64,000 bases of DNA from Bacteroidota bacterium. GTDB taxonomy: Bacteria; Bacteroidota; Ignavibacteria; Tepidaquicellales; Tepidaquicellaceae. The position numbers were made by a program, and so were the translations under genes. The DNA is taken from the NCBI GenBank assembly GCA_018266835.1, contig JAFDZP010000005.1, forward strand, positions 248,001-312,000, in the 5' to 3' direction. This document shows positions 38,692 through 45,029 of this stretch, in pieces. The notes under the pieces are model-generated. The model was not told the DNA's origin and did no database searches. It saw only the letters and a list, made by a program, of their open reading frames with translations. Numbering within the stretch: the stretch's first letter is position 1; each line of letters opens with the position of its first letter.

Positions 38692-38834
38692 TTTAGGTTT
38701 AGTTTTATACTGCAAAGATAGTACAGGTGGATGTATAGTTGTAGTCAAAAATAAGATGTGATTTGATAATTATTTCTCTCTCAACTTTAGCCAGAAATAA
38801 GAAACACTATTATTTTAAAAAAAGAGCTTCCTTT

Positions 38835-38896
38835 AACCTCCCCCTTAATCCCTCCCGTCAAGGCGGGACAAGCTCTCCTTAGTAAGGAGAGGGAAA
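38835..38896 (+). repeat. Family A palindromic repeat, copy R8 (forward, with insertion)
   Basis: Tail AACCTCCCCCTTAATCC, then an insert containing CCCGTCAAGGCGGG, then CTCTCCTTA / TAAGGAGAG. Confidence 0.75.
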
Positions 38897-38965
38897 CGAT
38901 AACTTCTTTTATGTAGAGTAAAGCTAGAATAACTCCTAAATAAGGAATGTAAATCACGAGAATAG

Positions 38966-39001
38966 AACCCCATCCTTTATAAGGAGGGGGCAGGGGGAGG
39001 T
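38966..39001 (-). repeat. Family A palindromic repeat, copy R9 (reverse)
   Basis: Hairpin CCCCATCCTT / AAGGAGGGGG, then tail CAGGGGGAGGT. Left boundary of the DUF559 bracket; the last codons and stop of the DUF559 gene lie inside it. Confidence 0.82.
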
Positions 39002-39366
39002 AAATTGCGACTAATTTCTATTTCATTCTTAATCTTATTAAGAACATTATCAATTGATTTATAGATTTCTTCATTTGAAAATCTAATTACCTTTATTTTT
39101 CTTTGCTTCAAATAATTTGTCCGAATTTTATCATACTCAATTGCATCTTTATCATCATGCACTTCACCATCCAATTCAATTCCTAGTCGGAGTTCTATTG
39201 AATAAAAATCTAAAATATATCTATCAACACTGTATTGCCTTCTGAATTTTATCCCATGAAATTTCTTATTCTTTATTTCATCCCAAAGTAACTGCTCTGC
39301 TTTAGTAGAATTGTTCCGAAGAAATTTTCTCGCTTCCTTTTTTTCGGGTTTGTTGTAAAGCTTCAT
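38977..39366 (-). CDS. DUF559 endonuclease-like protein (copy 1)
   Basis: 129 residues. DUF559 belongs to the Vsr/PD-(D/E)xK-like nucleases. Signatures seen: KEARKFLRNNSTKAEQLLWDE at the N-terminus, KFRRQYSVDRYILDFYS with the catalytic Asp, LGIELDGEVHDDKDAIEYDK with the ExD pair, and KVIRFSNEEIYKSIDNVL. No other domain. The final residues LPPPAPSL are encoded by repeat R9. Repeat R10 lies 26 bp upstream of the start in the opposite orientation, so the gene sits in an inverted-repeat bracket. Cellular role of the family is not established. Confidence 0.88.
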   Translation of the reverse strand: MKLYNKPEKKEARKFLRNNSTKAEQLLWDEIKNKKFHGIKFRRQYSVDRYILDFYSIELRLGIELDGEVHDDKDAIEYDKIRTNYLKQRKIKVIRFSNEEIYKSIDNVLNKIKNEIEISRNLPPPAPSL

Positions 39367-39391
39367 CTCAGCCGATTGAATTCTTGCCTTT

Positions 39392-39430
39392 AACCTCCCC
39401 CTTAATCCCCTCCTTAGTAAGGAGGGGGAA
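39392..39430 (+). repeat. Family A palindromic repeat, copy R10 (forward)
   Basis: Tail AACCTCCCCCTTAAT and hairpin CCCCTCCTTA / TAAGGAGGGG. Right boundary of the DUF559 copy 1 bracket. Confidence 0.85.
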
Positions 39431-39456
39431 GAAAATTCATTAAAACTTATAATAAT

Positions 39457-39506
39457 AAAAAAACAGCCGACAGATGGTGAATTACAGGGGCACCTGAAGG
39501 CTGTTT
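39457..39506 (-). terminator. Terminator of the 241-residue cargo gene
   Basis: Arms AAACAGCC (39461-39468) and GGCTGTTT (39499-39506); T run on the minus strand. Confidence 0.7.
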
Positions 39507-39560
39507 CACTGGTATTATAAATAATACCAAAATTTGATTATTATATTTTTTAGAACAAAT

Positions 39561-40286
39561 CTATTTTACTAAAACCATACTTTTTATAGAAGAGAATTCA
39601 TCTGTTTTAAGAGTGTAATAATAAACACCGGATGATAAATTTGCTCCAGAGAAATCTGCTCTGTACTCCCCTGCCTGCATGAACTGATTTACAAGGTCGG
39701 CAACTTCTCTTCCCATCATATCATAAACTTTCAAGCTTACGTTCTGAGCTTTAGGGATTGAGAAATTTATATTTGTTATAGGGTTGAACGGATTCGGATA
39801 ATTTTGTTTAAGCTCAAATGATTTTACTGTAGAAGAAATATTAGTAATAGCTGTTGTTGTTCTTCTAACATAAAAAGTTACCTCCTGAAACTGAGACGGA
39901 TTATCATTATCAAACATTCTTACAGTTTGAGTACCAACACCAGGGTTCGGAACTGTCCAGGTAACTTCAAAAGTTGAATCAACTTCTCCCGGAGCTAAAT
40001 CAACTGTGCCGGATGGAGGAATAATTTCCGTATTCACATAGCATAAACCATAACACATATCAGCAGCCCAACCCGAAGGAATAACTCTAGCCATCTTCTG
40101 AAATTTTATGTGCAATGTTGTAGCGCCTGTATTTCTCATTACTGCATAAGTATAATATGTATCGAATGTACCGCCGTTTTCATAACGCGCAGTATCAGCC
40201 CCTAATTTTGTAAATGTAAAACTCTGCGATTGTGCGCATGTTGCAAATGCGAGCACCGCGAAACAAATAAGTAATGCTTTTTTCAT
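39561..40286 (-). CDS. Small secreted protein with T9SS sorting domain
   Basis: 241 residues, signal peptide ending TCAQSQ. The mature domain (residues 21-145) is a beta-sandwich with a probable disulfide in GWAADMCYGLCYV, then PSGTVDLAPGEVDSTFEVTW and GVGTQTVRMFDNDNP. This arrangement resembles the domain that often accompanies Omp28-type thioredoxin-fold proteins, here alone. The sorting domain runs from FELKQNYPNPFNPITNI to IKSMVLVK. Gene lies alone with its own terminator. Confidence 0.78.
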   Translation of the reverse strand: MKKALLICFAVLAFATCAQSQSFTFTKLGADTARYENGGTFDTYYTYAVMRNTGATTLHIKFQKMARVIPSGWAADMCYGLCYVNTEIIPPSGTVDLAPGEVDSTFEVTWTVPNPGVGTQTVRMFDNDNPSQFQEVTFYVRRTTTAITNISSTVKSFELKQNYPNPFNPITNINFSIPKAQNVSLKVYDMMGREVADLVNQFMQAGEYRADFSGANLSSGVYYYTLKTDEFSSIKSMVLVK

Positions 40287-40324
40287 TTTGGTTGGTGAAT
40301 GATGATTATGTAATATTTTTTAAT

Positions 40325-40819
40325 TTAGTTTAATAGTCCCTGCAGCCTGTTGAAGTTCTGCTTAGCCGCAAGATATTCAGGGGCAATATCTTTAGATTTT
40401 CTGTATTCTTCAACTGCCTCAAACCACAGCCCTTTCATTTCAAATGCTCTTCCTAAATTTAGATGAGCAAAATGAGGGGCATCGTATCGTTTTGCATTTA
40501 ATGCCATTTCAATAAAAGGAATAGCCTCTTCCACTTTTCTTTGTGCAAGAAGATATGCGCCAATATCGTTATACGGATTTCCGTAATCGGGGTCTATTTC
40601 AATTGCGTTTTTACATTCTTCAATCGCTTTCTCGTAGTTACCAAGTAGCGAGTATGTCCATCCTAAAAATGTGTGAGCTTCAGGGGTTGGAAATAATTCT
40701 ATAGATAAATTATAGTTCTCAATTGCCTGTTCAAGTAATCCTTCAGACTGAAATTTGAATGCCTTATTAAAATAATCCTTTGACTGTTCAACTAAATTCT
40801 TATAATAGTTTTCTTTCAT
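40325..40819 (-). CDS. Tetratricopeptide repeat protein
   Basis: 164 residues made of four TPR units of 34 residues: YFNKAFKFQSEGLLEQAIENY, LGWTYSLLGNYEKAIEECK, IGAYLLAQRKVEEAIPFIE and LGRAFEMKGLWFEAVEEYR, each with the Ala8 and Ala20 pattern. No signal peptide. A protein-interaction scaffold of unknown partner. It starts 39 bp upstream of the neighbouring cargo gene on the same strand. Confidence 0.85.
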   Translation of the reverse strand: MKENYYKNLVEQSKDYFNKAFKFQSEGLLEQAIENYNLSIELFPTPEAHTFLGWTYSLLGNYEKAIEECKNAIEIDPDYGNPYNDIGAYLLAQRKVEEAIPFIEMALNAKRYDAPHFAHLNLGRAFEMKGLWFEAVEEYRKSKDIAPEYLAAKQNFNRLQGLLN

Positions 40820-40933
40820 AAGTATTTTAATATTATAAACTAACCCTGCATATTTAAAGTTTCATGTGAACAAACATAGCAGTAATGAAAAGTATTTTCA
40901 AGGTTTAAAAAAATTATTTCGCAGAAGTAAGAT

Positions 40934-41067
40934 TTAACCACAGAGGACACAGAAATTATACCGAGAACACAGAAAAGAATATGAATAAAACTAGTTTTAT
41001 TGGTTAAAAATCGACATTAATTAAATCTGTGCTCTCTGTGTGCAAAATCTGTGTTCTCTGTGGTTAA
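40934..41067. repeat. Long inverted repeat
   Basis: TTAACCACAGAGGACACAGA at the left and its near complement TCTGTGTTCTCTGTGGTTAA at the right, with further internal copies GAGAACACAGA and TCTGTGCTCTCTGTG. The two halves can fold into one stem. Lies in the divergent region between the TPR gene and purine nucleoside phosphorylase. Confidence 0.85.
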
Positions 41068-41167
41068 TTTTCAAAAAGTGTGATTTCACTTTCTTATTAC
41101 ATAAAAATTTAAAATATTCAATTAATCACCATTTTTGCATAATATAAAAAGAGAAACAGAGAAATAA

Positions 41168-41866
41168 ATGAGTTTAACGGGGGTAATACTGGGTTCGGGG
41201 CTTAACAAATTTTCAGAAGAGATTGAAAACAGCGAAATTTTGCTCAAAGACGATTCTGGATTTCATAAAAGAAAAATCATAAAAGGTACTATAAACAAAA
41301 AGCCGATTGTCGTTTTCGAGGGCAGAAGTCACTTTTACGAAGGATACACTCAGGATATGGTTTTCCAGAATGTGAATAAGGCAATTGAGCTGGGCGTCAC
41401 AAATCTGATTATAACAAACGCTGCCGGCGGAGTGAATCTTAATTATAAGGTCTCAGACTTAATGCTTATTACTTCTCATATTGATTTAATGAACAGAAAA
41501 ATTTTCCAGCCGAATAAATCGTGCTTCCATCACCCAACTTTATCTAAAGTAATAAAGCTTGCAACAGATAATAACATTAAATTAAGGCGAGGGACTTATG
41601 CAGCTTCATCCGGACCTGCGTACGAAACCAAGTCAGAAATTCTTATGCTTCGCAAAATGGGAGCGGATGCCATAGGCATGTCAACCATTCCGGAAATTCT
41701 TTACGCTAAGAAAAATAATATTAACGTTATAGGAATTTCCTGTATCACAAATCTGCTGAGAGTTTCCAACAACGGAAAAACTGAACATGCTGAAGTTGTT
41801 GAAGCGGGTTTAAGCGCATTTAAGAATTTTTCAAATCTTCTCAGAACAATCGTTACTAATTCTTAA
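41168..41866 (+). CDS. Purine-nucleoside phosphorylase
   Basis: 232 residues, slightly short for the trimeric PNP family (about 270). VILGSGLNKF at the N-terminus is the phosphate-binding loop; VVFEGRSHFYEGY, ITNAAGGVN, SDLMLITSHIDLMN and GTYAASSGPAYETKSEI followed by GADAIGMSTIPE are the PNP/MTAP signatures, including Glu and Asn base contacts. It splits purine nucleosides with phosphate to base and ribose-1-phosphate. The shortening is mainly at the N-terminus. Followed 16 bp later by tatD, likely same operon; hpt at 60575 provides the next salvage step. Confidence 0.9.
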   Translation: MSLTGVILGSGLNKFSEEIENSEILLKDDSGFHKRKIIKGTINKKPIVVFEGRSHFYEGYTQDMVFQNVNKAIELGVTNLIITNAAGGVNLNYKVSDLMLITSHIDLMNRKIFQPNKSCFHHPTLSKVIKLATDNNIKLRRGTYAASSGPAYETKSEILMLRKMGADAIGMSTIPEILYAKKNNINVIGISCITNLLRVSNNGKTEHAEVVEAGLSAFKNFSNLLRTIVTNS

Positions 41867-41882
41867 ACTGAAATATTTTAAA

Positions 41883-42647
41883 ATGATAGTAGATACTCAC
41901 GCCCATCTTTATTACGAAGATATATTAAACAACATAGATGAAATTTTAAAACGCGCGGAAGATGCCGGAATAGAAAAAATCATTGCTCCCGCCGTTGATT
42001 ACAAAACATCGATGCAATTGCTCGAGCTTACAGCAAAGTATCCTATGGTTTACGCTGCTTTAGGTATTCATCCTACCGATGTAAATAAATATGAGTATTC
42101 GGAATTGGAGAAGATAGAAAAACTTTTTGATAACGATAAGGTTGTCGGAGTCGGTGAGACAGGTTTAGATTATTACTGGGATACATCTTACAACGATAAG
42201 CAAAAAGAATTTTTCAGACTGCACATAGAAATTGCAAAAGCAAGAGAGCTGCCTGTTATTATTCACACCCGCAATTCAATCGATGATGCTATACAAGTTG
42301 TGAAAGATAATTACAGCGAAAAGCTGAAGGGACAATTCCATTGCTTCGACGGCACGACTGAACAGCTTGATAAAGTAATGGAACTGAAAACATTCTATGT
42401 GTCATTCACGGGCAATGTTACATATAAGAAATATGCTTTTGCAGATACTGTTGTGAAAGTCCCGATGAATAGAATATTATCAGAGACGGATTCTCCGTTC
42501 CTCTCGCCAATCCCCCACCGCGGAAAACCGAACGAGCCTTCCTATATTGTAAACACGATAAAAAAAGTCGCCGAGTTTAAAAATGTAAATGAAGATGAAA
42601 TGAAGAAGAGTTTCAGAGAGAATGTGACATCTTTATTTAAGATTTAA
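41883..42647 (+). CDS. tatD: TatD family hydrolase
   Basis: 254 residues, standard length. Metal-binding signatures in order: DTHAHLYYED, AALGIHPTDV, GETGLDYYWDTS, IIHTRNSIDDA, GQFHCFDGT and SETDSPFLSPIPHRGKPNEP. TatD-type proteins are metal-dependent 3'-5' exonucleases/deacylases in the cytoplasm. Repeat R11 begins 10 bp after the stop. Confidence 0.93.
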   Translation: MIVDTHAHLYYEDILNNIDEILKRAEDAGIEKIIAPAVDYKTSMQLLELTAKYPMVYAALGIHPTDVNKYEYSELEKIEKLFDNDKVVGVGETGLDYYWDTSYNDKQKEFFRLHIEIAKARELPVIIHTRNSIDDAIQVVKDNYSEKLKGQFHCFDGTTEQLDKVMELKTFYVSFTGNVTYKKYAFADTVVKVPMNRILSETDSPFLSPIPHRGKPNEPSYIVNTIKKVAEFKNVNEDEMKKSFRENVTSLFKI

Positions 42648-42656
42648 GAATTAAGC

Positions 42657-42695
42657 CTCCCCCTCCTTACGAAGGAGGGGGACTGAGGGGGCGGT
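42657..42695 (-). repeat. Family A palindromic repeat, copy R11 (reverse)
   Basis: Hairpin CCCCCTCCTTA / GAAGGAGGGGG, then tail ACTGAGGGGGCGGTA. Left boundary of a bracketed small gene. Confidence 0.87.
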
Positions 42696-42714
42696 ATAAT
42701 TTAATATTTAAGGT

Positions 42715-43019
42715 ATGAGAATCCTAAAAAAATTAATATTCTAATACTGTGTCTCTCAATTCTGTATACAATTTTATTATTTTTTTATTTGCATAAGCCA
42801 ATAAATTCATTCAACAGATTAGATTTTGATATCACAGGTTACGCATTAATTTATGCAGTATTAATTTTTGTTTTTTCTATTGTAACGATATTTATCTTCA
42901 AAGTTGAAAAAACCATTTTACAAAACTATTTCACTTTTTCTGTACCGGTAATAAATGCCCTCTTATCATTAATAATTTTTTATATAGCCAGAATATTTTT
43001 AGTAAGTGTCTGGGTGTAG
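42715..43019 (+). CDS. Small membrane protein broken by a frameshift in an A7 run
   Basis: ATG at 42715 reads MRILKK and then hits a stop after three more codons. In the frame one base back, the run continues INILILCLSILYTILLFFYL and on to the stop at 43019. Joining the two at the seven-A run (about 42726-42732) gives a 101-residue protein with three transmembrane helices, starting like a proper membrane protein. The run A AAA AAA is a slippery heptamer for a -1 shift; a sequencing deletion of one A or a pseudogene are equally possible. Without the shift, only a TTG start at 42789 (76 residues, one helix fewer) is available. Bracketed by repeats R11 and R12. Family unknown. Confidence 0.5.
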
Positions 43020-43025
43020 AACTAT

Positions 43026-43065
43026 ACCGCCCCCTTAATCCCCCTCCTTCGTAAGGAGGGGGAAA
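43026..43065 (+). repeat. Family A palindromic repeat, copy R12 (forward)
   Basis: Tail ACCGCCCCCTTAAT and hairpin CCCCCTCCTTC / AAGGAGGGGG. Right boundary of the bracket, 6 bp after the stop of the small membrane gene. Confidence 0.87.
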
Positions 43066-43193
43066 TCAGATTGTCCTAACATAAATCTTCTCCTATTTTC
43101 CTTTTTATCCCTCAAAATATTTTTTTATTTTTATTTCATTCATTGAGAAATAACTCCAATATTAAATTAAACGACTTTATCAATTACGCAAGC

Positions 43194-43234
43194 TTCCCCC
43201 TCCTTACGAAGGAGGGGGACTGAGGGGGCGGTTA
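43194..43234 (-). repeat. Family A palindromic repeat, copy R13 (reverse)
   Basis: Hairpin CCCCCTCCTTA / GAAGGAGGGGG with tail ACTGAGGGGGCGGTTA, almost identical to R11. Left boundary of the second DUF559 bracket, 10 bp before its start codon. Confidence 0.87.
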
Positions 43235-43244
43235 AATAAGAAAA

Positions 43245-43613
43245 ATGGAAATATTTAATAAACCAGAGTCAAAGGAAAAAAGAAAACATCTTAGAAAAAA
43301 TTCTACCAAAGCAGAATCAATTCTTTGGGAAGAATTACGTGGTAAAAAACTTTTAGGCGCAAAATTCAAAAGACAATTTAGTGTTGATAAATACGTTATA
43401 GATTTTTATTGCCCTAAATTAAATCTTGCAATTGAGCTTGACGGAGAAATCCACTTAGAAAAAGTTGCTATAAAATATGATAAAGTAAGAACACTATTTT
43501 TAAATAACCTTGGAATAGAAGTAATCCGATTTAATAATGAAGAAATATTTGAAAGTCTGCCATTAGTTTTAGAAAGAATAAAGGATGAAATTTTAAAATT
43601 ACGTAGTAATTGA
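43245..43613 (+). CDS. DUF559 endonuclease-like protein (copy 2)
   Basis: 122 residues, the same family as copy 1 at 38977 but clearly diverged: KPESKEKRKHLRKNSTKAESILWEE, KFKRQFSVDKYVIDFYC, LAIELDGEIHLEKVAIKYDK and EVIRFNNEEIFESLPLVLERI. The predicted catalytic residues (D in VIDFY, E and D in ELDGE) are kept. R13 lies just before the start and R14 begins 3 bp after the stop, in inverted orientation, so the gene fills the bracket. Both DUF559 copies start with NKPE-(S/K)KE, so they are recent relatives. Confidence 0.88.
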   Translation: MEIFNKPESKEKRKHLRKNSTKAESILWEELRGKKLLGAKFKRQFSVDKYVIDFYCPKLNLAIELDGEIHLEKVAIKYDKVRTLFLNNLGIEVIRFNNEEIFESLPLVLERIKDEILKLRSN

Positions 43614-43615
43614 TA

Positions 43616-43680
43616 TCGCCCCTCCCGCATCAAGTGCTGGACATACTTTAATCCCCCTCCTTCGTAAGGAGGGGGGAAAT
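43616..43680 (+). repeat. Family A palindromic repeat, copy R14 (forward, with insertion)
   Basis: Tail TCGCCCCTCCCGC, 20-base insert, then CTTTAAT and hairpin CCCCCTCCTTC / AAGGAGGGGG. Right boundary of the DUF559 copy 2 bracket. Confidence 0.78.
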
Positions 43681-43823
43681 AACAATTTACAACTTCTTCA
43701 ATCGGCATAATATTTGATATAAATACCATAAACTAACACTCGCTTTTTTGTTTTTTTCACTCAAAATGCTTATTTTTAACTGGTATTCACCAAATACAAA
43801 AAACTAAACCTCTAGCAAACACA

Positions 43824-45029
43824 ATGAAGAAACTACTATTAGTAGTCGTTCTTTTCGTATGTACTTCTTATTCGTACTCTGTACCTAAAAAATTCTTATT
43901 CGATGCAACGATGGGCGAAACTGCCGGAAACGCTGACTGGGTAATTGACGAAGATACAAGCACTCCGCAAAGATATCCTACACCGTTACAATCAACCGTT
44001 ACACAGTCAACCACTGAAGACTATTGGAAAGGCGCAATCTCGGCATGGGGTATTTCACTTGTTAAACTCGGAAACACTGTAGAAACTCTTCCTCCAAGCG
44101 GAGCAATTACCTATGGAAATTCAAGCAACGCTCAAGATCTTTCCAATTACGATGTATTTGTAATAGATGAACCAAATAACGCTTTTACGGCAACAGAAAA
44201 AGCTGCAATAATACATTTTGTTCAAAACGGCGGCGGATTATTTTTAGTAGCTGACCACGCAGGCGCAGATAGAGACGGAGACGGCTGGGATGCTGTGCGT
44301 GCAATAAACGATTTGATTAGAAATAATTCAGTTCAGTCCTATCCATTTGGAATCATCCTTGACTCCAACAATATTTCCGAAACATCGGTAAATGTTTTAA
44401 CATCATGGAGCGGAAGCCCTATTCTTAATGGAAGCGTTGGCGCAGTCCAGCAATTGAAATTCTCTAACGGCACCTCGATGACAATTAACACAACTCAAAA
44501 CGCAAATGCAAAAGGAGTTATATGGCGTAACGGTGCTTCACAAAACAGCGTGAGCATAATGTGCGCAACATCATTGTTAGGGACAGGAAGAGTCTGCATC
44601 ATAGGAGACAGCTCACCTTGCGATGACGGAACGGGCGCCTCAGGAAATACATTATATCCCGGATGGACAGAGCTGGGTACAAACCACTCAAGCTTATTTC
44701 TGAATGCATCTTTATGGCTGGCAAAACTTTCAGGCGTGACTTCTGTAGGAGAAAATACTGCTCCTGTTAGCTTTAAGCTTGAACAGAATTATCCGAATCC
44801 TTTTAACCCGACTACAAAAATAAATTTTTCAATTCCGAAATCTGAATACGTGACTCTTACAATTTATAATTCAATGGGAAAAGAGATTAACACACTGGTC
44901 TCTGAAAATATCTCAGCAGGAAATTACGAATATACTTTTTCAGGAATGGAATTATCCTCAGGAGTTTATTTCTACAAAATTACCACACCTGACTTTACTC
45001 AGACTAAATCAATGACACTTATAAAATAA
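43824..45029 (+). CDS. Secreted protein with GATase/DUF4350-like domain and T9SS sorting domain
   Basis: 401 residues, signal peptide ending YSYS. The first 300 residues resemble secreted proteins with a class-I-amidotransferase-like fold: NYDVFVIDEPNNAFTATEKAAI, then IHFVQNGGGLFLVADHAGADRD, and GTGRVCIIGDSSPCDDGT near the end. I see no obvious catalytic Cys-His pair, so the activity is unclear. The sorting domain runs from FKLEQNYPNPFNPTTKI to TKSMTLIK. Followed by a terminator; monocistronic. Confidence 0.72.
   Translation: MKKLLLVVVLFVCTSYSYSVPKKFLFDATMGETAGNADWVIDEDTSTPQRYPTPLQSTVTQSTTEDYWKGAISAWGISLVKLGNTVETLPPSGAITYGNSSNAQDLSNYDVFVIDEPNNAFTATEKAAIIHFVQNGGGLFLVADHAGADRDGDGWDAVRAINDLIRNNSVQSYPFGIILDSNNISETSVNVLTSWSGSPILNGSVGAVQQLKFSNGTSMTINTTQNANAKGVIWRNGASQNSVSIMCATSLLGTGRVCIIGDSSPCDDGTGASGNTLYPGWTELGTNHSSLFLNASLWLAKLSGVTSVGENTAPVSFKLEQNYPNPFNPTTKINFSIPKSEYVTLTIYNSMGKEINTLVSENISAGNYEYTFSGMELSSGVYFYKITTPDFTQTKSMTLIK

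Follow-up and report, generated by a model that had tools for sequence, protein, structure and literature searches.

Inverted hairpin repeats around DUF559 nuclease genes suggest an overlooked kind of jumping gene

Introduction

Can a small nuclease gene that is enclosed by two inverted copies of a dispersed hairpin repeat be a mobile element, and could the nuclease itself be the enzyme that moves it? The question is raised by a DUF559 gene in a stretch of bacterial DNA of 64,000 nt, which in its full length we call the window, and within which window coordinates are counted. Loci and genomes are denoted by L and G numbers. REP-like repeats are abundant in many bacterial genomes. In the portion of the literature source used here, the mobiliser described for such repeats is a HUH transposase, and the CGTC REPs have none assigned (PMC3733652).

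Results

A DUF559 gene between inverted repeats

DUF559 copy 1 and the repeats next to it are arranged as follows.

38977..39366, minus strand: DUF559 copy 1, a nuclease of 129 aa with the invariant residues intact
38966..39004 (about), minus strand: R9, inverted hairpin and tail repeat, tail towards copy 1, containing the final eight codons of the gene with its stop
39387..39431 (about), plus strand: R10, hairpin and tail repeat, tail towards copy 1
38830..38896, plus strand: further repeat copy with a small palindrome nested in its hairpin, forming a doublet with R9 in which the hairpins are innermost and the tails outermost

Copy 1 is a member of the DUF559 (PF04480) nuclease family, both by profile search (E=3.3e-31) and by its predicted Vsr/EDxHD fold, and is the sole ORF of the unit. 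R9 reads ACCTCCCCCT-GCC-CCCTCCTTATAAAGGATGGGG and R10 reads ACCTCCCCCT-TAAT-CCCCTCCTTAGTAAGGAGGGGG, and their hairpin arms (38968-38989 and 39407-39428, 22 nt each) are 86% complementary. A preliminary description of the window had placed copy 1 between R9 in reverse and R10 in forward orientation, with tails facing inward to the gene and hairpins outward, and had located the final eight codons, together with the stop, inside R9. The sequence confirmed both points, the stop codon being 38977-38979 and the codons specifying LPPPAPSL. A strict hairpin pattern missed R9 because of a one-base insertion in its hairpin. The palindrome nested in the hairpin at 38830-38896 is CCCGTCAAGGCGGG, and similar nested palindromes are present around L003 and L007.

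The repeat consists of a perfect or near-perfect hairpin, CCCCTCCTT-n-AAGGAGGGG, and a one-sided tail, ACCnCCCCCT, separated by a variable spacer (CAG, TAG, CTGAG, TTAAT and others, by eye in the listed copies). The hairpin core occurred perfectly 158 times in the 4.0-Mb window genome and 0 times for the reversed control, indicating that the repeat does not arise by chance. A second DUF559 gene in the window has the same layout as copy 1.

43245..43613, plus strand: DUF559 copy 2, 122 aa
43194..43234, minus strand: repeat left of copy 2, tail towards the gene, reverse hairpin at 43198-43216
43655..43677, plus strand: hairpin right of copy 2, tail degenerate
43025..43064, plus strand: additional family copy beside copy 2, from the repeat search
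42657..42697, minus strand: additional family copy beside copy 2, from the repeat search

The window genome contains seven DUF559 genes, and at each of them (7/7, by eye) a hairpin copy lies no more than about 130 bp away on one side or both. Their flank layouts differ, L001 having a copy on one side only and L007 a right copy with an outward tail. Five of the seven genes are 43-59% identical pairwise, and thus the seven are not recent duplicates. Directly downstream of the L005 gene (L005 1857-2090) is a partial second copy of the DUF559 3' end with a repeat of its own. An Rfam scan of 38700-43900 gave no match, and PADLOC returned weak partial matches only; a defence role may still apply.

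Predicted fold of the nuclease

The predicted model of copy 1 (pLDDT 92.1) matched the DUF559 protein NGO0050 (3hrl, Z 15.3), the homing endonuclease I-Bth0305I (3r3p, Z 11.8) and Vsr (1cw0, Z 9.2), and I-Bth0305I was also matched at E 2e-5. DUF559 proteins share the catalytic fold and motif of the EDxHD homing endonucleases. The assignment of copy 1 to the PD-(D/E)xK enzymes of the Vsr/DUF559 type, made earlier from the sequence, is therefore supported by a predicted fold of the Vsr/EDxHD kind. A Y1_Tnp search found no match in the window genome or in G192, making a resident REP transposase an unlikely mobiliser in these two genomes. Y1 genes were found in 10 of the 12 genomes checked.

Repeats flank DUF559 genes far more often than other genes

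We compared DUF559 flanks with those of other genes from the same sequence stretches. The sample comprised 80 standalone phylum loci and 20 long-frame loci, taken from the matches listed (in order of score, best first), with contig-edge matches left out; inverted-repeat (IR) scores were computed for 78 of the 80 phylum loci, two being without full flanks. An inverted repeat common to both flanks with a score of at least 14 was found at 47/78 DUF559 genes (among the matches listed) as against 32/834 controls. For the phylum DUF559 genes among the matches listed, C/T-rich hairpins were present on both sides of 50/80 genes compared to 11/836 other genes, and on either side of 73/80 compared to 176/836. 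When the neighbouring gene was at least 120 bp away on both sides, hairpins stood on both sides of 36/51 DUF559 genes and 7/150 controls (Fisher p 7e-21). No hairpin was present on either side at 7/80 phylum DUF559 loci (among the matches listed) and at 8/27 DUF559 loci of relatives of the window genome. Y1_Tnp loci, used for comparison, had C/T-rich hairpins on both sides in 0/30 cases and an IR score of at least 14 in 13/30.

The preliminary description had set beforehand a comparison with random genes, from which DUF559 flanks emerge as far more frequent (36/51 against 7/150, and 50/80 against 11/836). It had also held that DUF559 genes without flanking repeats would speak against its reading; a minority lack such flanks on both sides, and most have them. 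In a tail-direction count that took in 69 of the 80 named loci, the tail of the nearest hairpin pointed towards the gene 122 times and away from it 64 times; inside ORFs the figures were 7 and 17. Orientation therefore varies, and the inward-tail layout described for copy 1 is common but not universal.

The design is found across phyla

A scan of named genomes, which favours proteins resembling the query, yielded 80 loci from many phyla, 77 with full flanks. An IR score of at least 14 was obtained for 52/77, hairpins were present on both sides in 51/77, and all 77 had a hairpin on at least one side. Scores of at least 14 were distributed over cyanobacteria (8/9), Patescibacteria (9/15), Bacteroidales (12/18), Ignavibacteria (6/8) and Nitrospirae (1/3), and were also seen at single loci of Planctomycetes, Elusimicrobia, Geobacteraceae and Actinomycetota. 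Aligned flank pairs revealed one design, a hairpin followed by a G-rich tail, in differing sequences.

The exact window-type hairpin was detected in 31 of 198 genomes, and DUF559 was found in 30 of these 31 as compared to 79 of the 167 hairpin-free genomes (p 5e-8, relatedness being ignored). In two of the 30 co-occurring genomes, G107 and G182, DUF559 was matched only weakly and the hairpin is present once. The one hairpin genome without a DUF559 match, G006, carries 7 exact hairpins. For the 20 nearest genomes the corresponding counts were 11/11 with the hairpin and 5/9 without it. The sole two exact hairpins of G192 flank its DUF559 domain. Dispersed gene-less repeat copies in the genus of G038 include REPIN-like doublets. 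On viral contigs (L278-L328), 17 of the 37 DUF559 loci with full flanks scored at least 14, with a maximum of 82, and phage records gave 2 weak DUF559 matches.

E. coli ycjD (L407, L408 and L417) is a DUF559 gene located between sapF and fabI. It was considered as a full unit and rejected, since in MG1655 a single C/T-rich hairpin lies 174 bp downstream of it, with no inverted hairpin pair present, and since IR scores are low at the ycjD loci of strains H240 and KE47. The sequence just 3' of E. coli ycjD resembles a median of 4 places per genome having any. The gene may be a member of the element class that has been domesticated or is decaying.

Whole units lie in frame inside host genes

DUF559 matches in long frames, which are multi-domain proteins, were intended as negative controls and were dropped from that role. 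Hairpins were found in the reading frame at 18 of these 20 loci (among the matches listed) on at least one side, and on both sides at 15/20, so that the intended control turned into evidence. Hosts identified by Pfam were leucyl-tRNA synthetase (leuS), methionine synthase MetH, type I HsdR, HsdM, type ISP/Eco57I/MmeI-like and N6_N4 methyltransferases, a UvrD helicase and an M23 peptidase, and the unit occupied a C-terminal position in GATase_5 (L126) and N-formylglutamate amidohydrolase (L135). The hosts of L123, L134 and L136 were assigned by likeness, outside the Pfam scan. Restriction-modification (R-M) genes were the hosts of 9 of the 20 in-ORF units (among the matches listed). The in-frame repeats are translated as Pro/Gly-rich linkers, and no intein was evident in Pfam scans of the in-frame units. 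The D-x-ExDGxxH motif is kept in 20/20 in-ORF copies, and a catalytic-type motif in 85/87 standalone copies. At L078 the unit is fused in frame ahead of an apparent RNase HI sequence (by eye). The mobile-unit idea of the preliminary description can thus be extended, as the design spans phyla and whole units lie in frame in housekeeping genes, neither of which had been seen there.

On cyanobacterial plasmids (L409-L412), DUF559 genes with hairpin repeats adjoin, or separate, fragments of DUF1156 or PglX methyltransferase genes, a further sign that R-M and defence genes often serve as neighbours or hosts.

Empty sites in relatives

The LeuRS search covered 60 genomes from a single family. Among the 23 sequences aligned, five carried a DUF559 insert (one of them decayed and hairpin-free), 17 were uninterrupted and one had another small insert. 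G240 (L150) carries another small sequence in frame at the leuS position where other genera have DUF559 units. MetH was searched in 76 genomes of a second family, where five matches spanned the insert; of the 14 examined, 5 were with the insert, 8 without it and 1 unreadable. All five metH inserts share one site. The five carriers were scattered in the MetH host trees, and G035, which has the insert, was paired with G279, which has none, at 100/100 and 100/99. Exact junctions sought from this sister pair were unreadable, since the host linker is too diverged.

Copy 1 is missing from the sister species G316, in which 198 hairpin-free nt stand in place of about 810 nt between conserved genes. 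This absence could reflect loss as well as a unit never gained. In the region of G316 that corresponds to copy 2, such a hairpin is likewise missing, and we noticed no DUF559 frame. The search for empty sites that had been proposed earlier was therefore successful, with uninterrupted leuS and metH genes in relatives and a sister species without copy 1.

For L084, counterparts in the genus of G038 were without the unit in G065 and G069, and carried another repeat in G175. The counterpart in G026 (L172) was rejected as an exact empty site; it is an internal gene deletion with a 14-nt overlap, which removed the DUF559 gene and left the neighbouring repeat doublet in place.

Boundaries of the unit and lineages of nuclease and repeat

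Two loci of one genome in different surroundings, L046 and L057, share 487 bp at 85.5% identity from hairpin to hairpin, with unrelated sequence directly outside. At this identity, copying within the genome was not very recent. At an orthologous locus of two species (L115 and L117), the unit region is 90.1% identical over 527 bp as compared to 74.5 and 70.8% for the flanking genes, and the likeness drops at the hairpins. No target-site duplication was seen by eye in either pair, and no movement within one strain was seen among the copies compared.

In a tree of 114 DUF559 domains, the HsdM, Eco57I, MmeI-like and N6_N4 units and one type ISP unit formed one clade (92/92), which spans different host genes and families, and the MetH inserts grouped with one M23 insert (99/98). 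Tail types were placed on the DUF559 tree for the 70 of 107 loci with a recognisable tail, and required 23 label changes as compared to 40.0 with shuffled labels. With near-copies removed, the nearest protein from another genome had the same tail type in 22/48 cases against 10.9 expected (p=0.001). Several genomes have two or more tail types, next to different DUF559 lineages. By these sequence-based measures, repeat type follows nuclease lineage.

Discussion

A hairpin-bounded unit around DUF559 suggests an overlooked kind of jumping gene. As judged by comparison of genomes, the unit ends at the hairpins and is found at various loci and in unrelated host genes, with the same site empty in relatives; in some genomes it is accompanied by many gene-less repeat copies, single or as inverted doublets. 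We consider it probable that this is a REPtron-like mobile element of ~0.5 kb, driven by a PD-(D/E)xK nuclease instead of a HUH transposase. Such an element would consist of a hairpin and tail repeat, a single DUF559 nuclease gene and an inverted hairpin and tail repeat. The nuclease would recognise its own repeat, as an extruded hairpin with a G-rich tail, and nick or cut it; the ends might then serve, either in single-stranded form or by way of break repair, to copy the whole unit or gene-less doublets elsewhere. Units in frame would sit within a loop of the host protein and carry the nuclease as an extra domain, and may be tolerated since translation reads through the open frame of the repeats and yields Pro/Gly-rich linkers. 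For a Vsr-fold nuclease enclosed by hairpins of its own, the simplest reading is that it processes these hairpins. The step it performs may be a nick at the tail, work on the hairpin itself or a break at the target. The earlier reading, a mobile unit with inverted ends and a lone nuclease, has gained boundaries, empty sites and enrichment in its favour, whereas the nuclease as mover of the unit is what we infer. With somewhat less assurance, though still on the favourable side of even, we take DUF559 units to represent an undescribed class of mobile elements across phyla (Bacteroidota, Cyanobacteria, Patescibacteria and others), in which a Vsr-fold nuclease and not a transposase would recognise hairpin and G-rich-tail ends, spread gene-less REPIN-like doublets and insert units in frame in essential genes as translated passenger domains.

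The nuclease could instead be a free-standing homing endonuclease that cuts a cognate site in unit-free relatives, whereupon repair copies the unit and the hairpins serve as end structures or insulating linkers. We regard this as distinctly less probable overall, and yet as a serious rival for metH and for L115/L117. The fold resembles that of the EDxHD homing enzyme I-Bth0305I, the metH inserts of five genomes, scattered over the host tree, occupy a common site and have DUF559s that cluster, and at L115/L117 the unit is far more similar than its flanks; for the metH inserts clustered at one site, homing fits as well as transposition. Homing accounts poorly for one DUF559 clade hosted by several unrelated R-M genes, for copies at unrelated places in one genome and for the many dispersed gene-less repeats and doublets, and no intron or intein is evident. 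Both behaviours, homing and transposition, may occur.

Under the preferred reading the unit would move by its own nuclease. That another transposase, for example a Y1/HUH REP transposase, instead moves unit and repeats in trans as passengers seems to us improbable. The layout is similar to that of REPtrons and TIRtrons, as these appear in the excerpt of PMC3733652 used here, and Y1 genes are frequent in the genomes checked; yet the window genome, with its 158 hairpins, and G192, whose two exact hairpins flank DUF559, have no Y1 match, C/T-rich hairpins on both sides are found at none of the 30 Y1 loci, and the repeat type follows the DUF559 lineage. We attach equally little weight to the view that DUF559 is a Vsr-like repair or defence nuclease gene occupying tolerant spots where palindromic repeats land too. 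The Caulobacter DUF559 protein VsrA is linked to a cytosine methyltransferase in the excerpted text of PMC12907096, and R-M genes host nearly half of the in-ORF units among the matches listed (9/20). Tolerant spots would not explain the excess over matched long-intergenic controls, ends that are exact at the hairpins, insertions within leuS and metH, or a tail type that tracks the DUF559 protein.

If the preferred reading of a nuclease-driven element is true, the question of what mobilises REPs would be answered in part, by a second, unrelated type of enzyme coupled to repeats of its own, and DUF559, a common family of 'unknown function' with the K-12 member ycjD, would gain a testable role. 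An active-looking nuclease domain in frame in leuS and metH would be an unusual instance of a selfish gene that resides in essential proteins with no splicing.

Our literature search, with bioRxiv and most subscription journals outside its scope, turned up no account of flanking repeats at DUF559 genes. Among known systems, MITEs and insertion sequences share with the unit the terminal inverted repeats around a short unit and the gene-less derivatives, and differ from it in that the DUF559 unit has no recognised transposase and that no target duplication was seen in two pairs. Rickettsia palindromic elements are likewise palindromes translated in frame within host proteins, but are short and have no nuclease gene, according to the part of PMC10969869 drawn on. 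Vsr endonuclease and the DUF559 proteins YcjD of E. coli, NGO0050 of Neisseria and VsrA of Caulobacter have the same fold and family as copy 1; the source excerpts present them only as nucleases or putative nucleases and describe neither mobility nor a cognate repeat. DUF559 is grouped with Vsr in excerpts of PMC12907096 and PMC1189080, and with the EDxHD homing enzymes in that of PMC9403480. I-Bth0305I, an EDxHD enzyme, is alike in fold, in being a mobile nuclease and in insertion in conserved genes. DUF559 units differ in lying outside any intron or intein as far as seen, in being bounded by inverted hairpins, in having many unrelated hosts and in lacking an extended DNA-binding domain. With regard to one conserved target site, a mark of EDxHD homing enzymes, the five metH inserts share theirs, but DUF559 units are present in many unrelated hosts.

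REPtrons and REPINs are the closest systems in logic, a comparison for which we used parts of PMC3116915, PMC3733652 and PMC8266576. The DUF559 unit departs from them in having a PD-(D/E)xK/Vsr-fold nuclease and not a HUH Y1 transposase, in repeats without a conserved GTAG tag, and in lying whole and in frame within housekeeping genes. It resembles the REPtron with its RAYT (TnpA-REP) in having small palindromic repeats, tailed on one side and inverted around the gene on both sides, in dispersed gene-less copies and doublets, and in a repeat type that tracks the enzyme lineage.
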